Shown here piece after piece: positions 2,568 through 42,590 of a stretch of 64,000 bases of DNA. Every line of letters begins with the position of its first letter. Within the stretch, counting starts at the first letter, position 1. Under the pieces are notes generated by a model. The model did not search any database. It had not been told where the DNA came from and saw only the letters and a list, made by a program, of their open reading frames with translations. Source of the DNA: Holophagales bacterium (lineage in GTDB: Bacteria > Acidobacteriota > Thermoanaerobaculia > Multivoradales > Multivoraceae). The translations under genes and the position numbers were made by a program. The stretch covers positions 62,001-126,000 of the forward strand of contig VXVC01000004.1 of the NCBI GenBank assembly GCA_009836625.1, in the 5' to 3' direction.

Positions 2568-4095
2568 CCACAGTCTGCGGCCACTCGCTTCCCGCTGGTT
2601 CCGTGCGGGTCCGGCGGGCGCGCTGATCCTGCTAGCGGCCTGCGGGGCGCCGACGCCTCCACCGGAAACAAGGCTTCCGCACATCGTCCTGATCGTCCCG
2701 GACGACCTGGGCCGGCATGACGTCAGCTTCCACGGCGGGGACATCGCCACGCCGAACATCGACCGGATTGCGGCCGAGGGAGTGCTGCTCGAGCGCTTCT
2801 ACACGGCGCCGATCTGCTCGCCGACGCGGGCGGGACTGATGACGGGCCGCTATCCCATCCGCTACGGGCTGATGCGGAACGTCATCGCACCCTGGCAGGA
2901 CTTCGGGCTGGACACGGCGGAGGTCACGCTGCCTGAGGCGCTGGCAAGGGCCGGCTACGAGCACCGCGCCGTCTTCGGCAAGTGGCATCTGGGCCACGTC
3001 CGCCGGGAGCACCATCCGTTGCAGCGCGGCTTCACGGAGTTCGTCGGCCACAACACGTCGATCGACTACTTCACGAAGGAGCGGTTCGGTGAACGGGACT
3101 GGTTTCACGGCTACGAGCCGGCTGACGAAGAGGGCTACGTCACGGACCTAGTGGCCGAGCACGCGGTCCGGTTCATCGATCGGCGCGCAAGCGACGAGGC
3201 GCCGTTCTTCCTCTACGTTCCGTTCAACGCCGCCCACTCTCCGCTGCAGGCGAAGGAGGAGGACCTGCCGCGCTACGCGCACCTCGACGCGGTCGAGCCG
3301 CCACGCAGTTGGGAGGAAGTCACGGCCGGCTGGCCTCTGCCGCCGGAGGAGCAGCGCCGCGAAGACCGTCGAGTCCACGCCGCGATGGTTCACGCGCTGG
3401 ACGAGGGCGTGGGCCGCATCCTCCGGGCGCTCGACGATCGCGGCATCGCGGAGAACACTCTCGTCCTCTTCTTCAGCGACAACGGCGGCGGCCTCGGCGC
3501 CGCTGACAACGGGCCCTACCGGGGCACGAAGAGCACCGTCTTCGAGGGCGGCACGCGGGTCGCCGCGGCGGCTCGCTGGCCGGCGGGCGGCATCTCGGGC
3601 GGCGGGCGGGTGAAGTCGCCGGTCGCCTACATCGACGTCCTGCCGACCCTGATGGGCATCGTGGGCCTGAACGATCACGGTGGCAAGGAGCTCGACGGCC
3701 GAAACGTCCGCGACGTCCTCGCCGGCGCGGACTCGGATGGACCGGCGCGCGACCTGTACTCCTTCGTCGGCCAGAAGAACCCGGAGCGGGAGCAGGTCTC
3801 GGTGATGTCGGGCGCCTGGAAGCTCGTCGTCATCGGCCCGCCGCTCGACCGGCCGGGATCGGCGACGGCGTCCGACCAGCACCTGTACCGGATCGAGGAG
3901 GATCCCTTTGAGGAACGGAATCTGGCCGGGGATCGTCCGGACGTGGCGGCGCGTCTCCTCGACAAGGCCCGGGCGTTCCGCGCCCTGCAACCGCCGAACC
4001 CGGTGGGGTCCTTCGGCGTGGGTATGGAAGGGTTCGAGCCGCCGCCGAACTGGCGGTTCCCTGAAGCCGATACCACCGAATCAGGAGGATCCTGA
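2557..4095 (+). CDS. Lipoprotein sulfatase, arylsulfatase-B-like
   Basis: A 512-aa sulfatase starting at TTG and overlapping the previous gene by 11 nt. The N-terminus carries a lipoprotein signal with lipobox LAAC (Cys29), so it should be anchored in a membrane facing the periplasm or outside. Metal-ligand residues 'PDDLG' (D49, D50), the formylglycine motif CSPTR (C87-R91) and 'GKWHLGH' are all present. It is strongly similar to the first domain of the upstream fusion throughout its length, so the two are recent paralogues. It probably hydrolyses sulfate esters of polysaccharides or sterol-like compounds, but the substrate cannot be told. The TTG start is favoured because it begins directly ahead of the signal peptide and suggests translational coupling. 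Confidence 0.9.
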   Translation: MAGNHSLRPLASRWFRAGPAGALILLAACGAPTPPPETRLPHIVLIVPDDLGRHDVSFHGGDIATPNIDRIAAEGVLLERFYTAPICSPTRAGLMTGRYPIRYGLMRNVIAPWQDFGLDTAEVTLPEALARAGYEHRAVFGKWHLGHVRREHHPLQRGFTEFVGHNTSIDYFTKERFGERDWFHGYEPADEEGYVTDLVAEHAVRFIDRRASDEAPFFLYVPFNAAHSPLQAKEEDLPRYAHLDAVEPPRSWEEVTAGWPLPPEEQRREDRRVHAAMVHALDEGVGRILRALDDRGIAENTLVLFFSDNGGGLGAADNGPYRGTKSTVFEGGTRVAAAARWPAGGISGGGRVKSPVAYIDVLPTLMGIVGLNDHGGKELDGRNVRDVLAGADSDGPARDLYSFVGQKNPEREQVSVMSGAWKLVVIGPPLDRPGSATASDQHLYRIEEDPFEERNLAGDRPDVAARLLDKARAFRALQPPNPVGSFGVGMEGFEPPPNWRFPEADTTESGGS

Positions 4096-4097
4096 CC

Positions 4098-5054
4098 ATG
4101 CGTTCGAGTTACTGTGCCCTCGTTGGCGTCGCCCTGTTACTTGGTGGCTGCGCTGGTCCCACCGCCGACCAGTCGTCCGCCCCGGCCGCGGCCGGCGACG
4201 CGGGCGCGCCGTTTCACGGCGCCTGGGAGTTGGCTTCGATCGTTCGCTACTCGGGCGACGGCGAGGAACTGTCGCGCAACGAATCGTCGACCGGCTTCAT
4301 CATGTACGACCCGGCCGGAACGATGGGTGTCGTCATCCAGGGCGCCGATCGGGCGCCGTATGCGGGTGACGAGGCGACACCCGAGGAGATCCTGGCGGCC
4401 TACCGGTCGTACACGTCCTACTTCGGCGGCTTCACGGTGGACCCGGAGGCGGGTACGGTCACCCACCACCTGCGGGCGAGCATGAACCCGCGCGGCGCCG
4501 GCTCGGACTACGTGCGTCATTATGAACTCGGGGAGGACAGCCTGACGCTGCAGCCACCGGCCGGCGCCGACGGCGGCGTCGTGCGGCTGACCTGGAGGCG
4601 GCTGCCCGACCTGGCCGAACTCACGGACGAGCACCGCCGATTCATCGGCTTCTGGGAGTTCGCGCGGCTCGACCGCACGGACGACTCGGGCGCGGTGCTG
4701 CCGGTGCAGCGGACCTACGAGGACGGCTTCATCATCTACACGGCCTCCGGCCACATGGCGGTTCACCTGGTCCGTCCGGGTCGGGAACTCTTCGCCGACG
4801 GCCGCCCGACGGCGGAGGAGGCCGGCGCCGCGATGGGGACGTACGTCAGCTACTTCGGGCCGTACACGGTCTACGCGGACGAGGGATTCGTCGTCCACCA
4901 GCGGCCCGGTTGCTGGTTCCCCGGGTGTATCGGCTCGGACGCCCGGCGCGGCTACGAGTTCGGGGACGGCACGCTGACGCTCAAGCCGCCGGCGCGGGAA
5001 GTCGACGGGGGCCTGGTGCAGGACGCCCTGACGTGGGAGCGAATCAGCGACTAG
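4098..5054 (+). CDS. Duplicated lipocalin-like lipoprotein
   Basis: A 318-aa predicted lipoprotein (lipobox LGGC, Cys18) starting two bases after the sulfatase stop, with AGGAGG upstream of ATG. Two homologous halves, about residues 38-170 and 183-315, each contain a 'G-WE' strand, a 'GFI-Y' strand, a 'Y-SYFG' motif and a 'TL-L-PP' end. This pattern matches lipocalin-like domains (Lipocalin_5 type, from family knowledge). Each half would form a small beta-barrel for a hydrophobic ligand. Position after two exported sulfatases suggests one operon, but a shared pathway is inference. It ends convergently with the next gene; the two stop codons share a CTAG. Confidence 0.75.
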   Translation: MRSSYCALVGVALLLGGCAGPTADQSSAPAAAGDAGAPFHGAWELASIVRYSGDGEELSRNESSTGFIMYDPAGTMGVVIQGADRAPYAGDEATPEEILAAYRSYTSYFGGFTVDPEAGTVTHHLRASMNPRGAGSDYVRHYELGEDSLTLQPPAGADGGVVRLTWRRLPDLAELTDEHRRFIGFWEFARLDRTDDSGAVLPVQRTYEDGFIIYTASGHMAVHLVRPGRELFADGRPTAEEAGAAMGTYVSYFGPYTVYADEGFVVHQRPGCWFPGCIGSDARRGYEFGDGTLTLKPPAREVDGGLVQDALTWERISD

Positions 5055-33680: not shown

Positions 33681-33916
33681 TCCAGACCGTCCATGATGTC
33701 GTAGAGGGAGTTGCGGTCGGCGACGTCAACGCCCGGCAGGGTGCGCGTCTTCTTCGTGACGAGCTTCAGCTTGAACGGCTCCTCGGTTCGCCGTGGTGGC
33801 TGCAGGTACTGCCGGATAGCCCGCTCGATCAGGCGAGTCAGCGGTTCGCCATCCTCGGCAGCGCGTACTTTGGCCGCCTTGATCAGGCGGTCGTCGAAGT
33901 TCAGCGTGGTCTTCAT
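33677..33916 (-). CDS. vapB: VapB-type ribbon-helix-helix antitoxin
   Basis: A 79-aa protein with an N-terminal ribbon-helix-helix domain ('MKTTLNFDDRLIKAAKVRAA' and 'PLTRLIERAIRQYL') and a C-terminal tail 'RNSLYDIMDGLD' that should thread through the VapC active site. It binds DNA to repress its own operon and neutralises VapC. The perfect 7+7 inverted repeat over its start codon is the probable operator. Confidence 0.9.
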   Translation of the reverse strand: MKTTLNFDDRLIKAAKVRAAEDGEPLTRLIERAIRQYLQPPRRTEEPFKLKLVTKKTRTLPGVDVADRNSLYDIMDGLD

Positions 33917-33930
33917 ACAGAAATCTGTAT
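33915..33930 (-). promoter_or_regulatory. vapBC operator palindrome over the start codon
   Basis: Perfect inverted repeat ATACAGA-AA-TCTGTAT (7-bp arms, 2-bp spacer). It overlaps the first two bases of the vapB start codon, and its A/T content is far above the surroundings. This is where a ribbon-helix-helix dimer pair would bind to block both the promoter and initiation. Confidence 0.7.
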
Positions 33931-33992
33931 CACCTGCGGTGGATTCCTGTCAACGGAGCGGCCCGGTCTCGCGGATAGTGTCTGCTGCGGCC

Positions 33993-35732
33993 ATGTGGCG
34001 TTCTTCTACCTTCGCCCTAGTCCTTCTGGTTGCGGTTCTCTTGGCGTGCGCCGAAGCGGATGGCGGCGCGGACGTGTCGACGGCGGTTCCCTCGACGGAG
34101 CCGGTCTTCGTCGAGCGCGCGTCCGAGGCGGGACTCGACTTCGTTCATCGCAACGGCGGGGCGGGCGAGTACAACTACCCGGAACTCCTGGTGGGAGGCG
34201 GAGCGCTGCTCGACTTCGACGACGACGGACTGCTGGACGTCTACCTCGTACAGAGCGGGCCGGTTCCCGGAGCACCGGAAGCCGCGATGTCGGCGGGCGC
34301 GGTCGCCGACCGGCCGGGCAACGGCCTCTACCGCAACCTGGGTGACGGCGCGTTGGAGGACGTGACGGACGCCGCGGGCGTCGGCGACACGGGCTACGGC
34401 GCCGGGGCGACCGCGGCCGACTACGACCGGGACGGACTGGTCGATCTCTACGTGACGAACGTCGGCCCGAATCGGCTCTATCGCAACCTCGGCGACGGCA
34501 GCTTCGAGGACGTAACCGAACGTGCCGGCGTAGGCGACCCGGCCTGGTCGTCCAGCAGCGTGTTCTTCGACTACGACGGCGACCTGGACCTGGATCTCTT
34601 CGTCGCCAACTACGTGGTCTGGAGCGCCGGCCGGGAGCGCCCATGCCTGGGGCCCAACGGCCTCCGCAACTACTGCAATCCGGCGGAGTACCCGCCGGCC
34701 CCGGACAGCCTGTACCGCAACGACGGCGGCGGCCGGTTCACCGACGTGAGCGAGGTTGCCGGTATCCGCTCGGTTGCTGGGCCGGGCCTGGGGGTCGTCG
34801 CGGCGGACTTCGACGGCGACGACCTAGTCGATCTCTACGTGGCGAACGACCAGGCGGCGAACCACTTGTGGCTGAACCGGGGCGACGGTACGTTCCGCGA
34901 GGACGCGCTGGCGCGGGGCGCGGCACTCAACGAACTCGGCCAGCCCGAGGCCGGCATGGGCATTGCCGTCGCCGACCCCGACGGCGACGGCGATCTCGAC
35001 CTGTTCCTGACTCACCTGAGCGGCGAGACGAACACTTCCTACCGCAACGACGGCGGTGGCTTCTTTCGCGACGTGACCGACGAGGCAAGGCTCGGCGGCG
35101 TGAGCAAGCCGTACACCGGCTTCGGCACCTCCTGGTTCGACTACGACGGCGACGGCGTTCTCGACCTGTTCGTCGCCAACGGCAAGGTGACGCCGGGAGA
35201 TACCGCCGCCTTCGATTATCGCGAGCCGAACCAGTTGTTGCGGGGCATGCCGTCCGGCCGCTACGAGGACGTTTCGAGCCGGGCAGGCCCCGCCCTGGAG
35301 TTACTCGAGGTGAGCCGCGGTGCGGCCTTCGGTGACCTGGACAACGACGGCGACGTCGACGTCCTGCTCGTCAACAACGAAGGACCGGTGAGGTTGTTCC
35401 GGAACGACGTCGGCAACGCCCGCTCGTGGCTGGTCGTCGACCTCTGCGGCGGCGGAGTCTTCGACCGCTCGGCGATCGGCGCCCGGGTTACCGTCGAGGC
35501 GGCGGGGCGAAGCTGGACCCGCGAGGTCCGAGCGGCCTACAGCTTCGCGGTCGGCAACGACCCGCGGGTCCACTTCGGGCTTGGCGATGCGGAACAGGTA
35601 GACCGGCTGGAGGTGCGCTGGCCGGACGGCACCGTTACCGACCGCACCAACGTCGAGGTGAACCGCATCCTGCGCCTGCTGGCGCCGGGCGGGGAGCGAC
35701 CCGCGGAAGGGGTGTGTCGTGACGCGGAGTGA
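33993..35732 (+). CDS. CRTAC1-type lipoprotein with FG-GAP and ASPIC/UnbV
   Basis: A 579-aa lipoprotein (lipobox LLAC, Cys19) made of FG-GAP/VCBS-like calcium-binding blades ('DFDDDGLLDVYL', 'DYDRDGLVDLYV', 'DYDGDLDLDLFV', 'DFDGDDLVDLYV', 'DPDGDGDLDLFL', 'DYDGDGVLDLFV', 'DLDNDGDVDVLL'), ending in an ASPIC/UnbV domain ('GARVTVEAAGRSWTREV' and 'VHFGLGDAEQVDRLEVRWPDG'). The beta-propeller probably mediates binding at the cell surface. A TPR lipoprotein overlaps its end by 14 nt, a pairing common in Acidobacteria and Planctomycetes (family knowledge). Exact role unknown. Confidence 0.88.
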   Translation: MWRSSTFALVLLVAVLLACAEADGGADVSTAVPSTEPVFVERASEAGLDFVHRNGGAGEYNYPELLVGGGALLDFDDDGLLDVYLVQSGPVPGAPEAAMSAGAVADRPGNGLYRNLGDGALEDVTDAAGVGDTGYGAGATAADYDRDGLVDLYVTNVGPNRLYRNLGDGSFEDVTERAGVGDPAWSSSSVFFDYDGDLDLDLFVANYVVWSAGRERPCLGPNGLRNYCNPAEYPPAPDSLYRNDGGGRFTDVSEVAGIRSVAGPGLGVVAADFDGDDLVDLYVANDQAANHLWLNRGDGTFREDALARGAALNELGQPEAGMGIAVADPDGDGDLDLFLTHLSGETNTSYRNDGGGFFRDVTDEARLGGVSKPYTGFGTSWFDYDGDGVLDLFVANGKVTPGDTAAFDYREPNQLLRGMPSGRYEDVSSRAGPALELLEVSRGAAFGDLDNDGDVDVLLVNNEGPVRLFRNDVGNARSWLVVDLCGGGVFDRSAIGARVTVEAAGRSWTREVRAAYSFAVGNDPRVHFGLGDAEQVDRLEVRWPDGTVTDRTNVEVNRILRLLAPGGERPAEGVCRDAE

Positions 35733-36864
35733 CGCCGCGACCGTTGGCGGTGCGCCGGCCGTCTGGCCGGCATGGGGCGCCGCCATCGTCTTCCTGGGGT
35801 TCGTCCTCGGCTGTAGCGACCCGGGAGCCGACGTTCCCAACGAACCAGACCCGGCGACAACCGCCGACATCCCCCGCATCCCCAACCTCTCCGAACTCGA
35901 CCCGGGCTTCGCCACAGCTGTTCGTGACGCTCTCTCAATCGTCGACCGCGACCCGTCCAACGGCGCCGCGATTGGCGCCCTGGGCCGCCTCTACCAGGCG
36001 CACCGCTACGTCGACCAGGCCCGGCATTGCTACGAGCGGGCGGAGAAACTCGATCCATCGAGCCCCGACTGGCCTTACTACCTTGGTTTTCTCGCCGCCA
36101 GCCGCGGCGCTCATGACGAAGCGGCGCGCCGCTTCGAGCGCGCCCTGGAACTCCGTCCGTCGTACTGGGCGGCGCGCGTCCGGCTCGGTAACGTGCTGCT
36201 GGCCGCAGGCGACGCGGACGGATCGGAAGAAGCGTTCCGCGCGGTTCGGGCGGCGTCGCCCGGCACGCCCTGGGGCGAACTCGGGCTGGGCAAGGCGGCC
36301 CGGCGCCGGGGCCAGCCGGAAACCGCGGCTGAGCATCTGCGCACGGCGCTGGCGCTTGACCCCGCCCATCGGGAAACCCGCTACCTGCTGGCGATGACAG
36401 AGCGGCAACTCGGCAACCCGGAGCGCGCCGAGGAACTGCTGGCCGACCTGGCGGACGCGGAAGTCTCGAGCCTCGACGATCCGATGCTGGAGGCCGTGTT
36501 CGAGCTGGTACGGGACACCCAGACCATGATCCGGACGGCGAACCAGCGGCTGGCGGAAGGGGACTACCTCGCTGCGGATCGCCTCTACCGCGAAGTCCTG
36601 CGGCTCGATCCCGACTCCTACGATGCACACCTCAACCTGGGCGTGCTACTCGGCCTGGCCGACCGCAACCAGGAGGCCGCCACGGCTCTGGAAAGGGCGA
36701 TCGCGATCGACCCGGATCGGGCCGACGCCTACGCGCTACTCACGATCGCCTACATCAGGACGGGGCGAGCCGAAGAGGGCCTGCGGCAGTTGGAGAAGGC
36801 GCTCGAGATCGATCCGAATCACCCCAGAGCGCGTGAGATTCTCCAGAACCTGAGCGGAAACTGA
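35719..36864 (+). CDS. TPR lipoprotein
   Basis: A 381-aa protein starting at GTG 35719 within the previous gene. The signal sequence ends in lipobox VLGC (Cys32). From residue 75 on there are at least six tetratricopeptide-type repeats ('GRLYQAHRYVDQARHCYERA', 'FLAASRGAHDEAARRFERAL', and similar), separated by a stretch (about 245-275) with weaker repeats. Likely an outer- or inner-membrane-anchored scaffold for the CRTAC1 protein encoded just upstream. Confidence 0.88.
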   Translation: MTRSDAATVGGAPAVWPAWGAAIVFLGFVLGCSDPGADVPNEPDPATTADIPRIPNLSELDPGFATAVRDALSIVDRDPSNGAAIGALGRLYQAHRYVDQARHCYERAEKLDPSSPDWPYYLGFLAASRGAHDEAARRFERALELRPSYWAARVRLGNVLLAAGDADGSEEAFRAVRAASPGTPWGELGLGKAARRRGQPETAAEHLRTALALDPAHRETRYLLAMTERQLGNPERAEELLADLADAEVSSLDDPMLEAVFELVRDTQTMIRTANQRLAEGDYLAADRLYREVLRLDPDSYDAHLNLGVLLGLADRNQEAATALERAIAIDPDRADAYALLTIAYIRTGRAEEGLRQLEKALEIDPNHPRAREILQNLSGN

Positions 36865-36875
36865 CGCTGGCTGGC

Positions 36876-39554
36876 ATGAAAGGGAGGCTTGACGGCTTCG
36901 GACGCCTGATGCGGTACCTGATGGCCAGTCTCGCGGTGGCGTCGACCTGCCCGCCGGCGGTGCTTGGGCAGGGAGAGGTCCATGAGATCCACGAGATCCA
37001 GGGCCGCGGGTTGTCCAGTCCCCGGGCCGGCATGACAGTCACGACGAACGACAACGTGGTCACCGCAGTCGGCGCCGGCGGGTTCTTCATCCAGACTCCG
37101 TCCGCGCGCAGCGACAACGATGTCGACACCTCGGACGGTGTGTTCGTCCTCCACGGCGGGGCGCCGCCCGTGAGCGTCGGTGACCAGGTTGATGTCGTCG
37201 GTGAGGTCGAAGAGTTCTTCGGCTTCACGCGGATCGACGCGACGGTCGCGGGGGGCTCGGTAGCCATCGACGCCAGCAACCAGGCGTTGCCCGCGGCGGT
37301 GGAGTTCAACGCCGCTCGACCGTCGCCAAACCCCGCGCGTCCAAGTTGCGCCAGGGAGTACGAGTGCTACGAGGGCATGCGCATCCGGATCGCGACCGGA
37401 ACGGTGTCCGGCGGCAGCCAGCACTTCAGGTCGGATCCGGTCGCCGAGATGTACATCACGTCGACTTCTTCGCGCGGCTTCCGCGAGCCCGGCATCGAGT
37501 ATCCGGGCCGACCGGGACTGCCGGTCTGGGATGGAAACCCCGAGGTGTTCGAACTGGACCCCGACAAGATCCGTTTGGAGAACGAATCCTGGGTGCCAGG
37601 CACCACATTCACGGCCACCGGCGTGCTCGGCTACGAGTTCGGCGGCTACGAGATCTGGCCGACCGAACTGACGGTCCGGAGCGCGGCGGAGGCGTTGCCG
37701 CGCGCGGTGCGCGCGAAGGCGCCGGGCGAGATCACGGTGGCGTCGCAGAACCTGCTGAACCTGCGGGAGAACGCCGGTTCGGCCAAGCTCGGCAAGTTGT
37801 CGCGTCTGATCCGGGAGGTTCTTGGTTCCCCCGACATCGTCGCCGTGCAGGAAGTCCAGGGCCGGACCGCGCTCCAGGACCTGGCCGCGCGCATTCGAAG
37901 CGACGACCCGAGCGTGCGCTACACGGCCCATGTCGAGGCGCCGGGCAGGTCGCAGGCTGTGGGTTTTCTGGTGCGCTCGGGAGTAGCGGTTGACCGCGTG
38001 ACTGAACATGGCCGGAGTGAGACGTTCGTAGACCCGCGGGACGGGACTGTCGACCGGCTTCACGATCGGCCGCCGCTCGTGCTCGAGGCGACGGCCGGCG
38101 GCTTGGCGTTCTCGGTGGTGGCCGTCCACAACCGCTCGTTGATCGATGTCGACGACGCGGCACGGGGGGAGTGGGTCCGTACCAAGCGCCTGGAGCAGGC
38201 GCAGTCCGTGGCACGACTCGTCGAGTCGCTTCAGGATGGGAACGCGATCGTCGTGGGCGACTTCAACGCCTTCCAGTTCACCGACGGCTACGTCGACGTC
38301 GTGGGCCAGATCAGGGGGCGTGTAGCGCCGGCCGAGAACCTGATGTTCGGCCCCGACCTCGTCACCAGGGACCTGTGCAACCTGATCGACCGGGCACCGG
38401 CCGCCGAGAAGTACTCGTTTGTCTTTGACGGCAACGCGCAGGCACTCGACCATGCGCTGGTGAACCAGTCGTTGGAACGGCACGTCGTGGGCGTCGAGTA
38501 CGCCCGCGGCAACGCGGACGCCGCGCGGAACCACGAGGACGATGCAACGAACGTGCTCTTCGCCGCGGACCATGACGGCCTGGTCGTGTACCTGACGCCG
38601 GCCGCCAAGCCGCCAGTGAATCCATCGCCCTGCGAGGCCGCGGCGCCCGACCCGGATCCCGGTCCGGACCCTGACCCGGACCCTGACCCCGAACCCGAAC
38701 CCGAACCTGATCCTGACCCCGAGCCGCCGCCGGACCTGGCGGAGTGCGGCGATGACGATGTCCTGTGTGTGGGGCACTTCGACGTCCAGGTCGACTGGCG
38801 TACACACGACGGCAGGACCGGCCGCGGCGTTGCCCACAAGTTGACCGCGGAGAGCGGAGACTTCTGGTTCTTCGAGCCGGCGAACATCGAGATGGTCGTC
38901 AAGGTGCTCGACGGGTGTGCGAACAACGGCCACTTCTGGTTCTTCGCGGCCGGTCTGACGGACATCGAAGTGACGACGACGGTTCGGGACCGGAGGAACG
39001 GAGTCCGGAACACGTGGGTGAATCCCCTGGGCCGGCTGTTCGAGCCGATCAGTGACACCAGGGCGTTCGCGACCTGCACTCCTGAATCGAGCGCGGTGGG
39101 GCTGCGCCGACCGACGCCGGAAGGCGCTACGGCGGAAGCGGCGGAACTCTCGCACCCGGTCTGGCTCGCCGACGCCGTTCAGGCGGTTGCGGCGGTCGGC
39201 ACCTGCGTCGCCGGTGAGACGTCCCTCTGTCTCCAGGACGCACGCTTCGAAGTCCGGGCGAACTGGCAGGCCGGAGAAGGAAGCGGCGTCGGTACGGCTG
39301 TCCCCCGCACGTCGGACACGGGCATGTTCTGGTTCTTCAGCCCCGGCAACGTCGAACTGGTGGTCAAGGTCCTGGACGGTTGCCGTCTGGGAGGGTACCG
39401 GTGGGTGCTGATGGGCGGGTTGACCGACGTCGGCGTTGAGATCACGGTGACGGACAGCGAGTCCGACGCCGTGAAGACCTACCGGAATCCCGAGGGCTCG
39501 CCCTTCGCGACGAGGTTCGATCTCATGGCGTTCCCGTGCAGCGCCGACGGATGA
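36876..39554 (+). CDS. Exported ExeM-like nuclease with duplicated C-terminal domain
   Basis: An 892-aa exported protein. Parts in order: signal peptide (about 1-32); OB-fold-like nuclease accessory region (33-265) as in ExeM/YhcR-type extracellular nucleases; an endonuclease/exonuclease/phosphatase domain (about 285-585) with 'VASQNLLNL', 'VAVQEVQG', 'VVGDFNAF' and 'ALDHALVN'; an Asp-Pro/Glu-Pro linker (about 590-620); and two copies of a domain with 'FWFF', 'VKVLDGC' and 'GLTD' motifs. It probably degrades extracellular DNA or phosphoesters, with the tail binding a surface or substrate. It starts 11 nt after the TPR gene. Confidence 0.82.
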   Translation: MKGRLDGFGRLMRYLMASLAVASTCPPAVLGQGEVHEIHEIQGRGLSSPRAGMTVTTNDNVVTAVGAGGFFIQTPSARSDNDVDTSDGVFVLHGGAPPVSVGDQVDVVGEVEEFFGFTRIDATVAGGSVAIDASNQALPAAVEFNAARPSPNPARPSCAREYECYEGMRIRIATGTVSGGSQHFRSDPVAEMYITSTSSRGFREPGIEYPGRPGLPVWDGNPEVFELDPDKIRLENESWVPGTTFTATGVLGYEFGGYEIWPTELTVRSAAEALPRAVRAKAPGEITVASQNLLNLRENAGSAKLGKLSRLIREVLGSPDIVAVQEVQGRTALQDLAARIRSDDPSVRYTAHVEAPGRSQAVGFLVRSGVAVDRVTEHGRSETFVDPRDGTVDRLHDRPPLVLEATAGGLAFSVVAVHNRSLIDVDDAARGEWVRTKRLEQAQSVARLVESLQDGNAIVVGDFNAFQFTDGYVDVVGQIRGRVAPAENLMFGPDLVTRDLCNLIDRAPAAEKYSFVFDGNAQALDHALVNQSLERHVVGVEYARGNADAARNHEDDATNVLFAADHDGLVVYLTPAAKPPVNPSPCEAAAPDPDPGPDPDPDPDPEPEPEPDPDPEPPPDLAECGDDDVLCVGHFDVQVDWRTHDGRTGRGVAHKLTAESGDFWFFEPANIEMVVKVLDGCANNGHFWFFAAGLTDIEVTTTVRDRRNGVRNTWVNPLGRLFEPISDTRAFATCTPESSAVGLRRPTPEGATAEAAELSHPVWLADAVQAVAAVGTCVAGETSLCLQDARFEVRANWQAGEGSGVGTAVPRTSDTGMFWFFSPGNVELVVKVLDGCRLGGYRWVLMGGLTDVGVEITVTDSESDAVKTYRNPEGSPFATRFDLMAFPCSADG
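38757..39540 (+). repeat. Two copies of a 'FWFF...VKVLDGC' domain
   Basis: Copy 1 spans about 38757-39075 and copy 2 about 39222-39540. Each begins with 'LC', then 'F-V-W', 'FWFF-P-N-E-VVKVLDGC', 'GLTD' and ends with a 'NP-G' loop and a final Cys. The first and last Cys could pair. I do not recognise a named domain. The copies have diverged at many positions, so the duplication is not recent. Confidence 0.7.
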
Positions 39555-39651
39555 GTCGGATCGCCCGGCCACTACTCAAGCTTGAACCAGATCGATGGCG
39601 TGTAGTCTGCCGCCCGCCGGAGGCGTCACAAGGAGCCGGGGAGGTGAGCAG

Positions 39652-40701
39652 ATGAGTCAGGCCGGGAACACGTTGAAGGCGGTTCAGCTTGGGGAGAAGT
39701 GCGGACTCCGGGTGTCGGAGCTGTGCCTGGGAACGATGAACTTCGGCGAACCGGGCAGAGGTCACCAGGGTGACTGGACGCTCGACATCGACGCCTCTCG
39801 GCCGATCTTCCAGGCCGCCATCGAGCGCGGCCTTTTCTACTTCGACTGCGCGGACATCTACGGCATCGGCGCATGCGAACGGGTGGTCGGCGCGCTGCTC
39901 CGCGAACTCCTGCCACGCGACGAGTACGTGATCTCGACCAAGGTGTCCATGCCGATGGGCCGGTCGCCGAACCAGGGCGGGCTGTCCCGCAAGCACATCA
40001 TGGAGGGGGTCGACGGCTGCCTGCAGCGGCTGGGCCTCGACTACATCGATCAGTTGATCATCCATCGGCACCCGCACGCCATTCCCGGCCAGGTCCAGGC
40101 GCCGATCGAGGAGACGCTGGAGGCGCTGCACGACGTGGTCAAGGCTGGCAAGGCGCTCTACCTGGGCGCGTCGTCCATGTTCGCGTGGCAGTTCACGGAG
40201 CTCCAGATGACGGCTCAGCGGAACGGCTGGACCGAGTTCGTGTCGATGCAGAACCACTACAACCTCGTCTACCGCGAGGAAGAGCGGGAGATGAACCCGT
40301 ACTGCGCCCGGACCGGCGTGGCCCTGACACCCTGGTCGCCGCTGGCGCGCGGCATTCTCACGGGCTCGTACAAGGGCAGCTTCGACGAGGGCGGCACGGA
40401 TCGCTCGAAGGGCGGCGACCGGATCCGCACCGAGATGCTCTACGGCGGCGTCGCCACCTTCGACATCGCCGACCGGGTGGTCGAAGTGGCCGGGAAGTAC
40501 GGCCGCACGCCGGCGCAGATCTCGCTCGCCTGGCTGGTCAACAAGCCCGAGGTCACCTCGCCCGTCGTCGGAGTGTCCAAGATCTCCCAGATCGAGCAAC
40601 TCGTCGAGGCGACGACGATCGAACTCGACGAAGAGGACGTCGCCTATCTGGAGGAGTTGTACCAGCCGGTCGAGAACCTGCTGTCACTGGGCCATTCCTG
40701 A
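39652..40701 (+). CDS. Aldo/keto reductase
   Basis: A 349-aa NADPH-dependent oxidoreductase with the AKR tetrad: Asp65 and Tyr70 ('FDCADIYG'), Lys97 ('ISTKVSM') and His138 ('LIIHRHPH'). The C-terminal 'GRTPAQISLAWL' and 'VVGVSKISQIEQLVEA' bind the cofactor. It resembles the YajO / Gfo-type reductases acting on sugars or aldehydes. GGGAGGTGA lies 5 nt before ATG 39652. The 97-nt space upstream contains a possible -10 TAGTCT at 39604-39609 and nothing else I can identify. Confidence 0.9.
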   Translation: MSQAGNTLKAVQLGEKCGLRVSELCLGTMNFGEPGRGHQGDWTLDIDASRPIFQAAIERGLFYFDCADIYGIGACERVVGALLRELLPRDEYVISTKVSMPMGRSPNQGGLSRKHIMEGVDGCLQRLGLDYIDQLIIHRHPHAIPGQVQAPIEETLEALHDVVKAGKALYLGASSMFAWQFTELQMTAQRNGWTEFVSMQNHYNLVYREEEREMNPYCARTGVALTPWSPLARGILTGSYKGSFDEGGTDRSKGGDRIRTEMLYGGVATFDIADRVVEVAGKYGRTPAQISLAWLVNKPEVTSPVVGVSKISQIEQLVEATTIELDEEDVAYLEELYQPVENLLSLGHS

Positions 40702-40734: not shown

Positions 40735-40740
40735 TATCAT
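40735..40740 (+). promoter_or_regulatory. -10-like box TATCAT
   Basis: TATCAT 11 nt before the TTG start of the DUF1800 gene. No clear -35. Spacing allows a very short 5' leader. Confidence 0.3.
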
Positions 40741-40751
40741 CGGCGGCGATC

Positions 40752-42590
40752 TTGAAACCTCGCGTTCATCCCGGAAGCTGCGTGGCGGCGGCGATCGCCT
40801 GGTGCATCGCTCTGCCTGCGGCCGCCATCGGCGCGCCGGTCGATTCGGCCGGCCACGCGTGGGTCGGGGATCTGGCGCCGCTGGCCGAGTCGGATTTCGG
40901 CTATGAGCAGGCTGCGCACCTGCTGGAACGGGCCGGTTTCGGCGGCACGCCGGCGGAGATCGAGGAACTCGTCGCGCTCGGTCTCGAGGGAGCGGTCGCC
41001 CGGCTCGTGGACTACGAGGCGGTCGACGACTCGGCGCTTGCGCCGTTCGACGAGTCCGGGATCTGGGATCCGGGAATGGACCCGTTCCCGCCTAGCCGGG
41101 CGGCGGCGGTGCGGCGTGCGCGGCGCCACGGGCGGTCGCTCGGCGTCGACGTCCTCCCCGAGGGTGCGTCGCGACCGATCCAGCCGGTGGTCGACAAGTT
41201 CTTCTACGGGCTTCGCAGCAACGTGCTGGAGACCCGGCGGCTGGCGCTGTGGTGGGCCGACCGGATGGTGGTGACCCCGCGGCCGCTCGAGGAGAAGATG
41301 ACTCTCTTCTGGCACGACCACTTCGCGACCTCCGAGGTGAAGGTCCGCGACGCCCGGAAGATGCATCTGCAGAACCGGACCCTGCGGAGTCACGCCACGG
41401 CTGACTTCAAGAGCCTGGTGCTCGCGGTCATGCGCGATCCGGCGATGCTGGTCTATCTCGACAACCGGGAGAACGTGAAGGACCACCCGAACGAGAACTT
41501 CGGCCGCGAGCTGCTCGAGCTGTTCACGATGGGGGTCGGCAATTACACCGAGCAGGACATCCGCGAGGCGTCGCGGGCGTTCACCGGCTGGACGAACGAC
41601 GTGCTCGACTACCGGTTCGACGCCGAACTCCACGACGACGGTCCGAAGACCTTCCTGGGGCGCGAGGGCAACCTGGGCGGCGAGGAAGTCCTGGACATCA
41701 TCCTCGAGCAGCCGGCGACCGGTGAGTTCCTCGCCGGCAAGGTCTACCGCTACCTGGTGCGGGAGGAACTCGACCCGGCGCTCCAGGTCGAACTGGGCCG
41801 TCGCCTGCGCGAATCGGGATACGAACTGAAGGCGCTGCTGCGGACGATCCTCTCGTCGCGGGACTTCTACAGTCCGCCGTCGGTCGCCACCCAGATCAAG
41901 AGCCCGGTCGCGCTGTTCGTCTCGACCTACCGCAAGCTTGGCGTGCCGCGGGCGCCCACGGTGCCCGACATGAACAGCGTCGCGGGCCGCCTGGGCCAGC
42001 AACTGCTCTACCCGCCGAACGTGGCCGGCTGGGCGGGCGGCCGCACCTGGATCACGCCGGCGACGTTGCTCGAGCGTGGCAACGCGATGCGCTCGGTCCT
42101 CTTCCCGCCGGCGCTCGAGGAGTTCGGCCATCCGGACCGGCGGATGCCCGGGATCTACCGCCAGGTCGGCGAGCGGCTGGCGCGGGGCATGACGATCACG
42201 GCGGCGACGAAACAGGGCGACGCCGCGTCCAACACGCTGGCCGACGCGGACGAGGAGTACAACACCCGCTACGGCGGATATCGCGGCTACGTCGTGGCCT
42301 ACGAGCGGGTCAAGCTCGTGCCGCGCCACGTCCTCGACGTCGACGTGCGGGCCATGGTGCTGGCGGCCGGCGCCACGGATGTCGAGGGAGCGGTCGACCA
42401 CCTCCTGCACCGGTTCCTGCGCGTTCCGCTGACCGAGCCGGGGCGCGCGGCGCTGGTGCGGCACCTCGAGCGCGAACTGGAGTCGACAGGTCTTGAAGCA
42501 CAAGACCCCGGCTCGGTGGAGAAAGTCGAGGAAGCGCTACGCTCGACGCTCTACGTCGTCTTCAGTTCGCCCGAATATCAGTTGGGCTGA
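40752..42590 (+). CDS. Exported DUF1800 protein
   Basis: A 612-aa protein. TTG 40752 is taken as the start because it gives a signal peptide with Lys, Arg and His ahead of 'CVAAAIAWCIALPAAAIGA'. DUF1800 motifs are all present: 'LLERAGFGGTPAEIEEL', 'LFWHDHFATS', 'NRENVKDHPNENFGRELLEL', 'EASRAFTGW' and 'PPNVAGWAGGRTWI'. The next gene is DUF1501. These two families are almost always neighbours and are thought to act together in the periplasm or at the surface; the biochemical role is unknown. Confidence 0.88.
   Translation: MKPRVHPGSCVAAAIAWCIALPAAAIGAPVDSAGHAWVGDLAPLAESDFGYEQAAHLLERAGFGGTPAEIEELVALGLEGAVARLVDYEAVDDSALAPFDESGIWDPGMDPFPPSRAAAVRRARRHGRSLGVDVLPEGASRPIQPVVDKFFYGLRSNVLETRRLALWWADRMVVTPRPLEEKMTLFWHDHFATSEVKVRDARKMHLQNRTLRSHATADFKSLVLAVMRDPAMLVYLDNRENVKDHPNENFGRELLELFTMGVGNYTEQDIREASRAFTGWTNDVLDYRFDAELHDDGPKTFLGREGNLGGEEVLDIILEQPATGEFLAGKVYRYLVREELDPALQVELGRRLRESGYELKALLRTILSSRDFYSPPSVATQIKSPVALFVSTYRKLGVPRAPTVPDMNSVAGRLGQQLLYPPNVAGWAGGRTWITPATLLERGNAMRSVLFPPALEEFGHPDRRMPGIYRQVGERLARGMTITAATKQGDAASNTLADADEEYNTRYGGYRGYVVAYERVKLVPRHVLDVDVRAMVLAAGATDVEGAVDHLLHRFLRVPLTEPGRAALVRHLERELESTGLEAQDPGSVEKVEEALRSTLYVVFSSPEYQLG

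Follow-up and report, generated by a model that had tools for sequence, protein, structure and literature searches.

The pair of Cys-bounded domains that the earlier note had described as a feature of a nuclease is indeed carried by that nuclease, but it belongs to a large portable family with 60 matches in the fetched stretches of the same genome. We tentatively read this domain (the module) as a portable extracytoplasmic binding or retention module that would act as a shared address for many secreted enzymes of the Thermoanaerobaculia, and for which we infer the binding role. The nuclease gene lies in the 64,000-nucleotide stretch of DNA that was analyzed (the window) and has the following parts.

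36876..39554, + strand: exported EEP nuclease gene with a C-terminal module pair; single ORF, ATG start, 892 aa (codons)
36876..36968, + strand: probable signal peptide, aa 1-31; recognized by eye from a basic start followed by a hydrophobic stretch (no call from a crude script)
36984..37226, + strand: N-terminal region, aa 37-117; resembles the start of the EEP-containing PDB entries 9sf8 and 9sf9 (phmmer E of 1.5e-13)
37770..38510, + strand: EEP nuclease domain, aa 299-545; Pfam PF03372, 37.2 bits (cut-off, 24.5), and NCBIfam ExeM_NucH model NF033681, 129.1 bits (below its cut-off of 300)
38646..38735, + strand: Asp-Pro/Glu-Pro linker, aa 591-620 (about), from the translation
38745..39077, + strand: module copy 1, aa 624-734, Cys to Cys; from HMM, alignment, and AlphaFold2 model
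39078..39203, + strand: inter-copy linker, aa 735-776; predicted to be mostly disordered, under relaxed selection
39204..39539, + strand: module copy 2, aa 777-888, its last residue 4 aa before the stop; from HMM, alignment, and AlphaFold2 model

The two models of the catalytic domain bear out the ExeM-like type assigned to it earlier, as does the translation for the order of an Asp-Pro/Glu-Pro linker followed by two Cys-bounded copies. Because the score against NF033681 is far below 300, we regard the enzyme as a relative of ExeM and not as a filed member of that group. The region aa 37-117 is probably the OB-like part of ExeM/NucH nucleases. The protein resembles these enzymes (Shewanella ExeM and Vibrio Xds) in having a signal peptide, a probable OB-like region, an EEP domain, a proline-rich linker, and a C-terminal element. 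It differs in two respects: ExeM carries a lamin tail domain (LTD) and ends in GG, a hydrophobic helix, and four arginines, whereas the window nuclease has no N-terminal LTD (Pfam, E up to 1) and terminates in module copy 2, with no C-terminal GG, hydrophobic helix, or basic end. Toward its C terminus, Shewanella ExeM carries a proline-rich stretch and then GG, a segment of hydrophobic residues, and four Arg, and the protein is located with the inner membrane (PMC6085458). The rhombosortase model TIGR03902 had no match in the genome of the window, and all 14 of the 14 controls matched it below the cut-off.

The module is about 111 residues in length. Its two copies in the window are 41% identical, and copy 1, used as a query against the whole genome, retrieves copy 2 at an E of 8e-22. 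The blocks FWFF, VKVLDGC, and GLTD, which had been called strict, are each present in both window copies, but FWFF and GLTD are strict in those two copies only. The residues that are nearly invariant across the family are G, FF, N-x-E, K, L, W, V, D, and F, and the conserved core reads FF-x-x-x-N-x-E-x-x-x-K-V-L-D-G, together with a Cys pattern. In the 208 near-full copies counted (out of 220 distinct rows, which are related and hence are not independent events), E56 occurs in 206, F50 in 201, N54 in 200, K60 in 200, W72 in 199, F115 in 198, G45 in 197, and D111 in 197. The cysteine of the DGC segment and the C-terminal cysteine are both present in 154 of these 208 copies, with the end cysteine alone in 2, the DGC cysteine alone in 14, and neither in 38; no copy has both the second N-terminal cysteine (169 copies) and the cysteine of the strand that follows (24 copies). 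The simplest reading of these patterns is that each module would hold two disulfides, one from the first cysteine to the second or the strand cysteine and the other from the DGC cysteine to the end cysteine, which fits export into an oxidizing space; a subset of 17 copies with three cysteines falls outside this scheme. Both copies are under purifying selection (dN/dS of 0.18 to 0.35 against five orthologues, compared with 0.12 to 0.17 for the EEP core), and selection on the inter-copy linker is relaxed (0.28 to 1.11).

Nothing described in Pfam-A or NCBIfam matches the module, so the earlier view of it as unrecognized holds for these libraries. Among 82 copies compared with Pfam at E up to 1, no family was recovered (best E, 0.0081 for CarboxypepD_reg in one copy and 0.051 for Big_13 in two), and the models of the PPC, PKD, fn3, and Big families gave no real match. 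The best E in NCBIfam was 0.023, for one copy, and PHROGs returned a single weak match (E of 0.21). Sequence matches in the PDB (best E of 0.79 with a single sequence and 0.14 with a profile) were attributed to chance. In the accessible portions of the literature on Thermoanaerobaculia, or containing the motif strings of the module, a description of it was not found.

Structure prediction, which had been proposed as a check, yielded a confident all-beta AlphaFold2 model of the single domain (82 copies), with a mean pLDDT of 93.4 and a pTM of 0.86; its one helix is short and falls at the DGC segment. Modeled together with the linker, the two copies (275 aa, 44 rows) gave a pTM of 0.82, with residues 128 to 154 falling under a pLDDT of 50; by our own arithmetic, two freely tumbling domains of such size are expected to give a pTM of about 0.4 to 0.5, so the model fixes the mutual arrangement of the copies. 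In this prediction the copies are packed against each other, although AlphaFold2 may overrate the packing of similar domains. Foldseek returned no row with an E below 0.001 from either the PDB (best, 0.051) or BFVD (best, 0.013), and none of the Foldseek or VIA-align comparisons gave a fold match pointing to binding. The best VIA-align row, the PP7 coat protein, had a Z of 5.6 and an rmsd of 3.7 over 72 aligned residues; the top rows of that search (levivirus coat proteins, Mxra8, and antibody domains, with Z at most 5.6) were set aside as common beta arrangements. The best Foldseek row for the pair (E of 0.0016 yet a TM of 0.14 and an rmsd of 24) was rejected as meaningless. For a predicted model, the lack of a confident match would not in itself make the fold new, and the module may yet belong to an Ig-like or other known beta-sandwich family.

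The frequency of the module in its own genome (4.32 Mb, 98.75% complete) is high. Copy 1 alone finds 60 matches in the whole genome at E up to 1, 56 of them at E up to 0.001, and an iterated HMM finds 60 matches with E < 1e-5 in 38 ORFs within the 24 fetched stretches and the window (L050, a repeat of L049, being left out, and copies elsewhere that were missed by copy 1 standing outside the count). There is one copy in 20 of these ORFs, two in 16, four in 2, and three in none, so pairing is not obligatory; L053:6317 and L053:6937, counted here as two ORFs, make up one gene, which a frame break within a copy splits in two. By our estimate from 38 ORFs in a 4.3-Mb genome, the module is present on roughly one in a hundred proteins per genome.

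The proteins that carry the module are diverse. A Pfam scan of 37 of the 38 host ORFs and of L054:1033, a weak candidate with an E above 1e-5 (the nuclease was scanned separately), identified peptidases of the reprolysin/M12B, M10, astacin M12A, and M14 types, along with alkaline phosphatase, beta-lactamase fold, PQQ propeller, GSDH, Spondin_N, LRR, and Cache domains. Accessory fn3, PKD, Calx-beta, and CARDB domains also occurred, and several hosts had no Pfam domain at all. The hosts in related genomes were sampled by taking a single ORF from each locus, 60 in all out of the 104 that reach 250 aa, and leaving out the nuclease loci L055-L064, six repeats of one protein, and very long ORFs. Their range of domains was similar, the most frequent being Calx-beta (13), PQQ (7), fn3 (7), CarboxypepD_reg (5), beta-lactamase (4), and M10 (4).

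Beyond this genome, the module is widespread. Among 21 related genomes (own included), 20 have 19 to 63 copies each at E up to 0.001, the exception being G014, without copies. In a sample of the class Thermoanaerobaculia it was detected in 76 of 147 genomes at E up to 1e-5 (up to 31 candidates being scored in each); the genus had it in all 21 of its genomes, whereas family f3 of the same order had it in only 5 of 18, with a single copy each. A sample of the phylum, with at most 20 candidates scored per genome, contained it in 29 of 247 genomes, 11 of these beyond the class. One peptide pattern, run against 84,980 species genomes, picked out 231 stretches, of which 183 were confirmed. The best 80 of these 183 represent 78 loci, all from Acidobacteriota by record name except one from a "Deltaproteobacteria" MAG (L074, JAHZIX010000039.1), whose label is probably wrong because the contig coordinates of its matches coincide with those in G015, a module-rich genome of the window's own order. 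With this correction, the suggestion that the domain is specific to its lineage holds in broad terms for the Acidobacteriota, the origin of the 78 loci being judged by record title only and the phylum limit resting on the best 80 of the 183. A role specific to sponge hosts was set aside, since records titled as soil and other sources also carry the module.

Within the genus, the module is a constant feature of the nuclease. All 21 orthologues with a readable 3' part have it, in two copies in 15 and one copy in 6 (L162, a broken and cut locus, was dropped from this count); none of eight orthologues from other families of the order does. The tails of these eight are, as we take them to be, calcium-repeat-like followed by a CSCEQI motif in five, DUF11-like repeats in one, calcium-repeat-like with an IPTL-CTERM-like anchor in one, and plain in one. 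The nuclease 3' ends of L153, L154, L155, L156, and L157 share a motif around CSCEQI and GCS...W, and this tail is possibly another unnamed C-terminal module of the class. The L163 nuclease, from a genome rich in the module, ends in IPTL followed by hydrophobic and then basic residues, like the IPTL-CTERM sorting signal. A module-rich genome (G015) can thus have a nuclease that lacks the module. The window's genome has a single nuclease match. Some relatives have two: at L160 and L161 (G012 and G007), an additional ExeM-like gene, longer than the first and lying near it, encodes a nuclease with the paired tail as well.

In the mechanism that we propose, a disulfide-stabilized all-beta module, often paired with its copies packed together, has spread through the Thermoanaerobaculia secretome, placed mostly at the C terminus and also at the mature N terminus or internally. 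By binding one abundant envelope or matrix component, it would keep secreted enzymes at the surface or in the extracellular matrix of the cell that made them. Adhesion and carbohydrate binding, as suggested in the earlier note, are possible functions of the module. Because the hosts act on different substrates (DNA, protein, phosphate esters, and others), a shared address is the simplest function that they could have in common. In the nuclease, the pair behind the proline-rich linker occupies the position of the C-terminal membrane anchor of ExeM, and retention near the cell could make the products of DNA digestion available for uptake there.

The main rival is substrate binding of the CBM type, in which different copies would bind different polymers (glycans, DNA, or a collagen-like host matrix), thereby placing every enzyme at its substrate. 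Proline-rich linkers ahead of the module, as in the window nuclease, would suit this role, as would the conserved aromatic residues, the strong divergence of copies from each other, and the presence of the module at the ends of two viral-contig proteins. However, its strictest positions (N-x-E, K, L, and W) are common to hosts with unrelated substrates, no CBM model in Pfam matches it, and in parts of the tree the copies track their position in the pair and not the type of enzyme; we consider this explanation unlikely. A tree of 54 copies from the own genome, built on 100 columns and leaving many forks unresolved, groups copies from several pairs of hosts by their rank, first with first and second with second (L041/L052 and L038/L047), and window copy 1 groups with copy 1 of a metallopeptidase-LRR protein (L043; support, 97/89). 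The first-copy state changes 10 times on this tree compared with 13.3 times in shuffles, and the grouping is not clean. Such grouping by position suggests that a pair has probably moved as one piece from one kind of enzyme to another.

The viral proteins come from two IMG/VR contigs, each of which encodes a protein of its own ending in the module. The first (L133; 31,481 bp) encodes this protein at 3961-4821, with a weak match to a terminase small subunit nearby (E of 0.0028) and, by eye, a ThyX-like gene as a neighbor, and the second (L164; 7,405 bp) encodes its protein at 1-1158, along with helicase, DNA methyltransferase, and HNH genes recognized by eye. The module was not found in GenBank phage records, and tblastn gave no match to it in the phage and plasmid collections. 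On the basis of these two contigs, viral use favors a binding role over a bacterial export signal.

A structural accessory role, resembling that of PPC or PKD domains, seems rather improbable. Here, a ligand-free module would stabilize or space the enzymes or keep them latent outside the cell, perhaps being cleaved. Its occurrence beside PKD, fn3, and Calx-beta domains and its all-beta model with two probable disulfides agree with this, and like PPC (PF04151), PKD, and Calx-beta, it is appended to exported enzymes, peptidases among them, and in some cases to the very enzymes that carry those domains. Unlike them, it has its own core and Cys pattern and matches nothing in Pfam, and the conservation of N, E, K, and D near the aromatic core seems more than a spacer needs, although these residues could serve folding alone.

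Least probable is a C-terminal sorting or secretion signal that, like the CTD of the type IX secretion system (T9SS), would be read by a dedicated outer-membrane machine. The T9SS C-terminal domain is a similar-sized domain that ends many unrelated secreted proteins of one lineage. In 29 of the 38 own ORFs, no more than 15 aa separate the last copy of the module from the stop, as a sorting signal would give, and we count this against the shared address; the same applies to 91 of 106 ORFs in relatives (some cut at locus ends), and the more distant nuclease of L163 has its IPTL-CTERM-like anchor at the same place. The strict C-terminal form of the surface-sorting signal raised in the earlier note, with the module always the last domain, is not supported, given the remaining 9 of the 38 ORFs, in which the last copy is more than 15 aa before the stop (up to three of the nine could be genes that are broken or cut, L035 and L042 appearing truncated and L033 possibly so). 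Two proteins have the pair directly behind the signal peptide and 855 aa after it, with a HEKAH (HExxH) motif downstream of the pair in the one L054 protein read through; other exceptions have 202 to 980 aa beyond the last copy. An obligatory C-terminal sorting signal is unlikely because such N-terminal and internal copies exist, and tandem and fourfold copies also speak against it. Moreover, unlike the T9SS domain (Por_Secre_tail, PF18962), to which it has no sequence match, the module is bounded by cysteines. Por_Secre_tail had no matches in the own genome, G000 (one control genome matches below the cut-off), and is absent from the 17 Pfam families listed for the 82 copies. A search for SprA was silent in the own genome and in the control genomes too, and T2SSK had no match in the own genome, a model that the controls show is not specific to type II secretion.

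A stronger version of the shared address, which we hold to be unlikely, is a dedicated surface-display system of the Thermoanaerobaculia, in which a new beta fold, as an intramolecular pair, would dock tens of mutually unrelated secreted enzymes on a single dedicated partner in the envelope or matrix, and would have been adopted by phages for their own proteins. Cohesin/dockerin and T9SS tails are the docking and display counterparts elsewhere. None of the libraries searched names the module, and naming it would flag exported proteins and annotate a large share of what this widespread class, most of it uncultured, secretes. If the address is common to its hosts, one binding experiment would explain the working place of dozens of enzymes.

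In the own genome, two adjoining genes, L054:8141-11773 and L054:11769-15272, resemble each other and both place their module pair at the mature N terminus, and L048:7131-11318 has four divergent copies without the FWFF block, with CARDB domains behind them. The frame break within a module copy at L053:6317-9450 may be an assembly error or real. In the whole window, the only RNA family detected was one tRNA. Just upstream of the nuclease are genes for an FG-GAP/ASPIC-UnbV protein (33711-35732) and a TPR protein (35719-36864), whose ends overlap, and downstream are genes for an aldo-keto reductase (39595-40701) and a DUF1800 protein (40737-42590).
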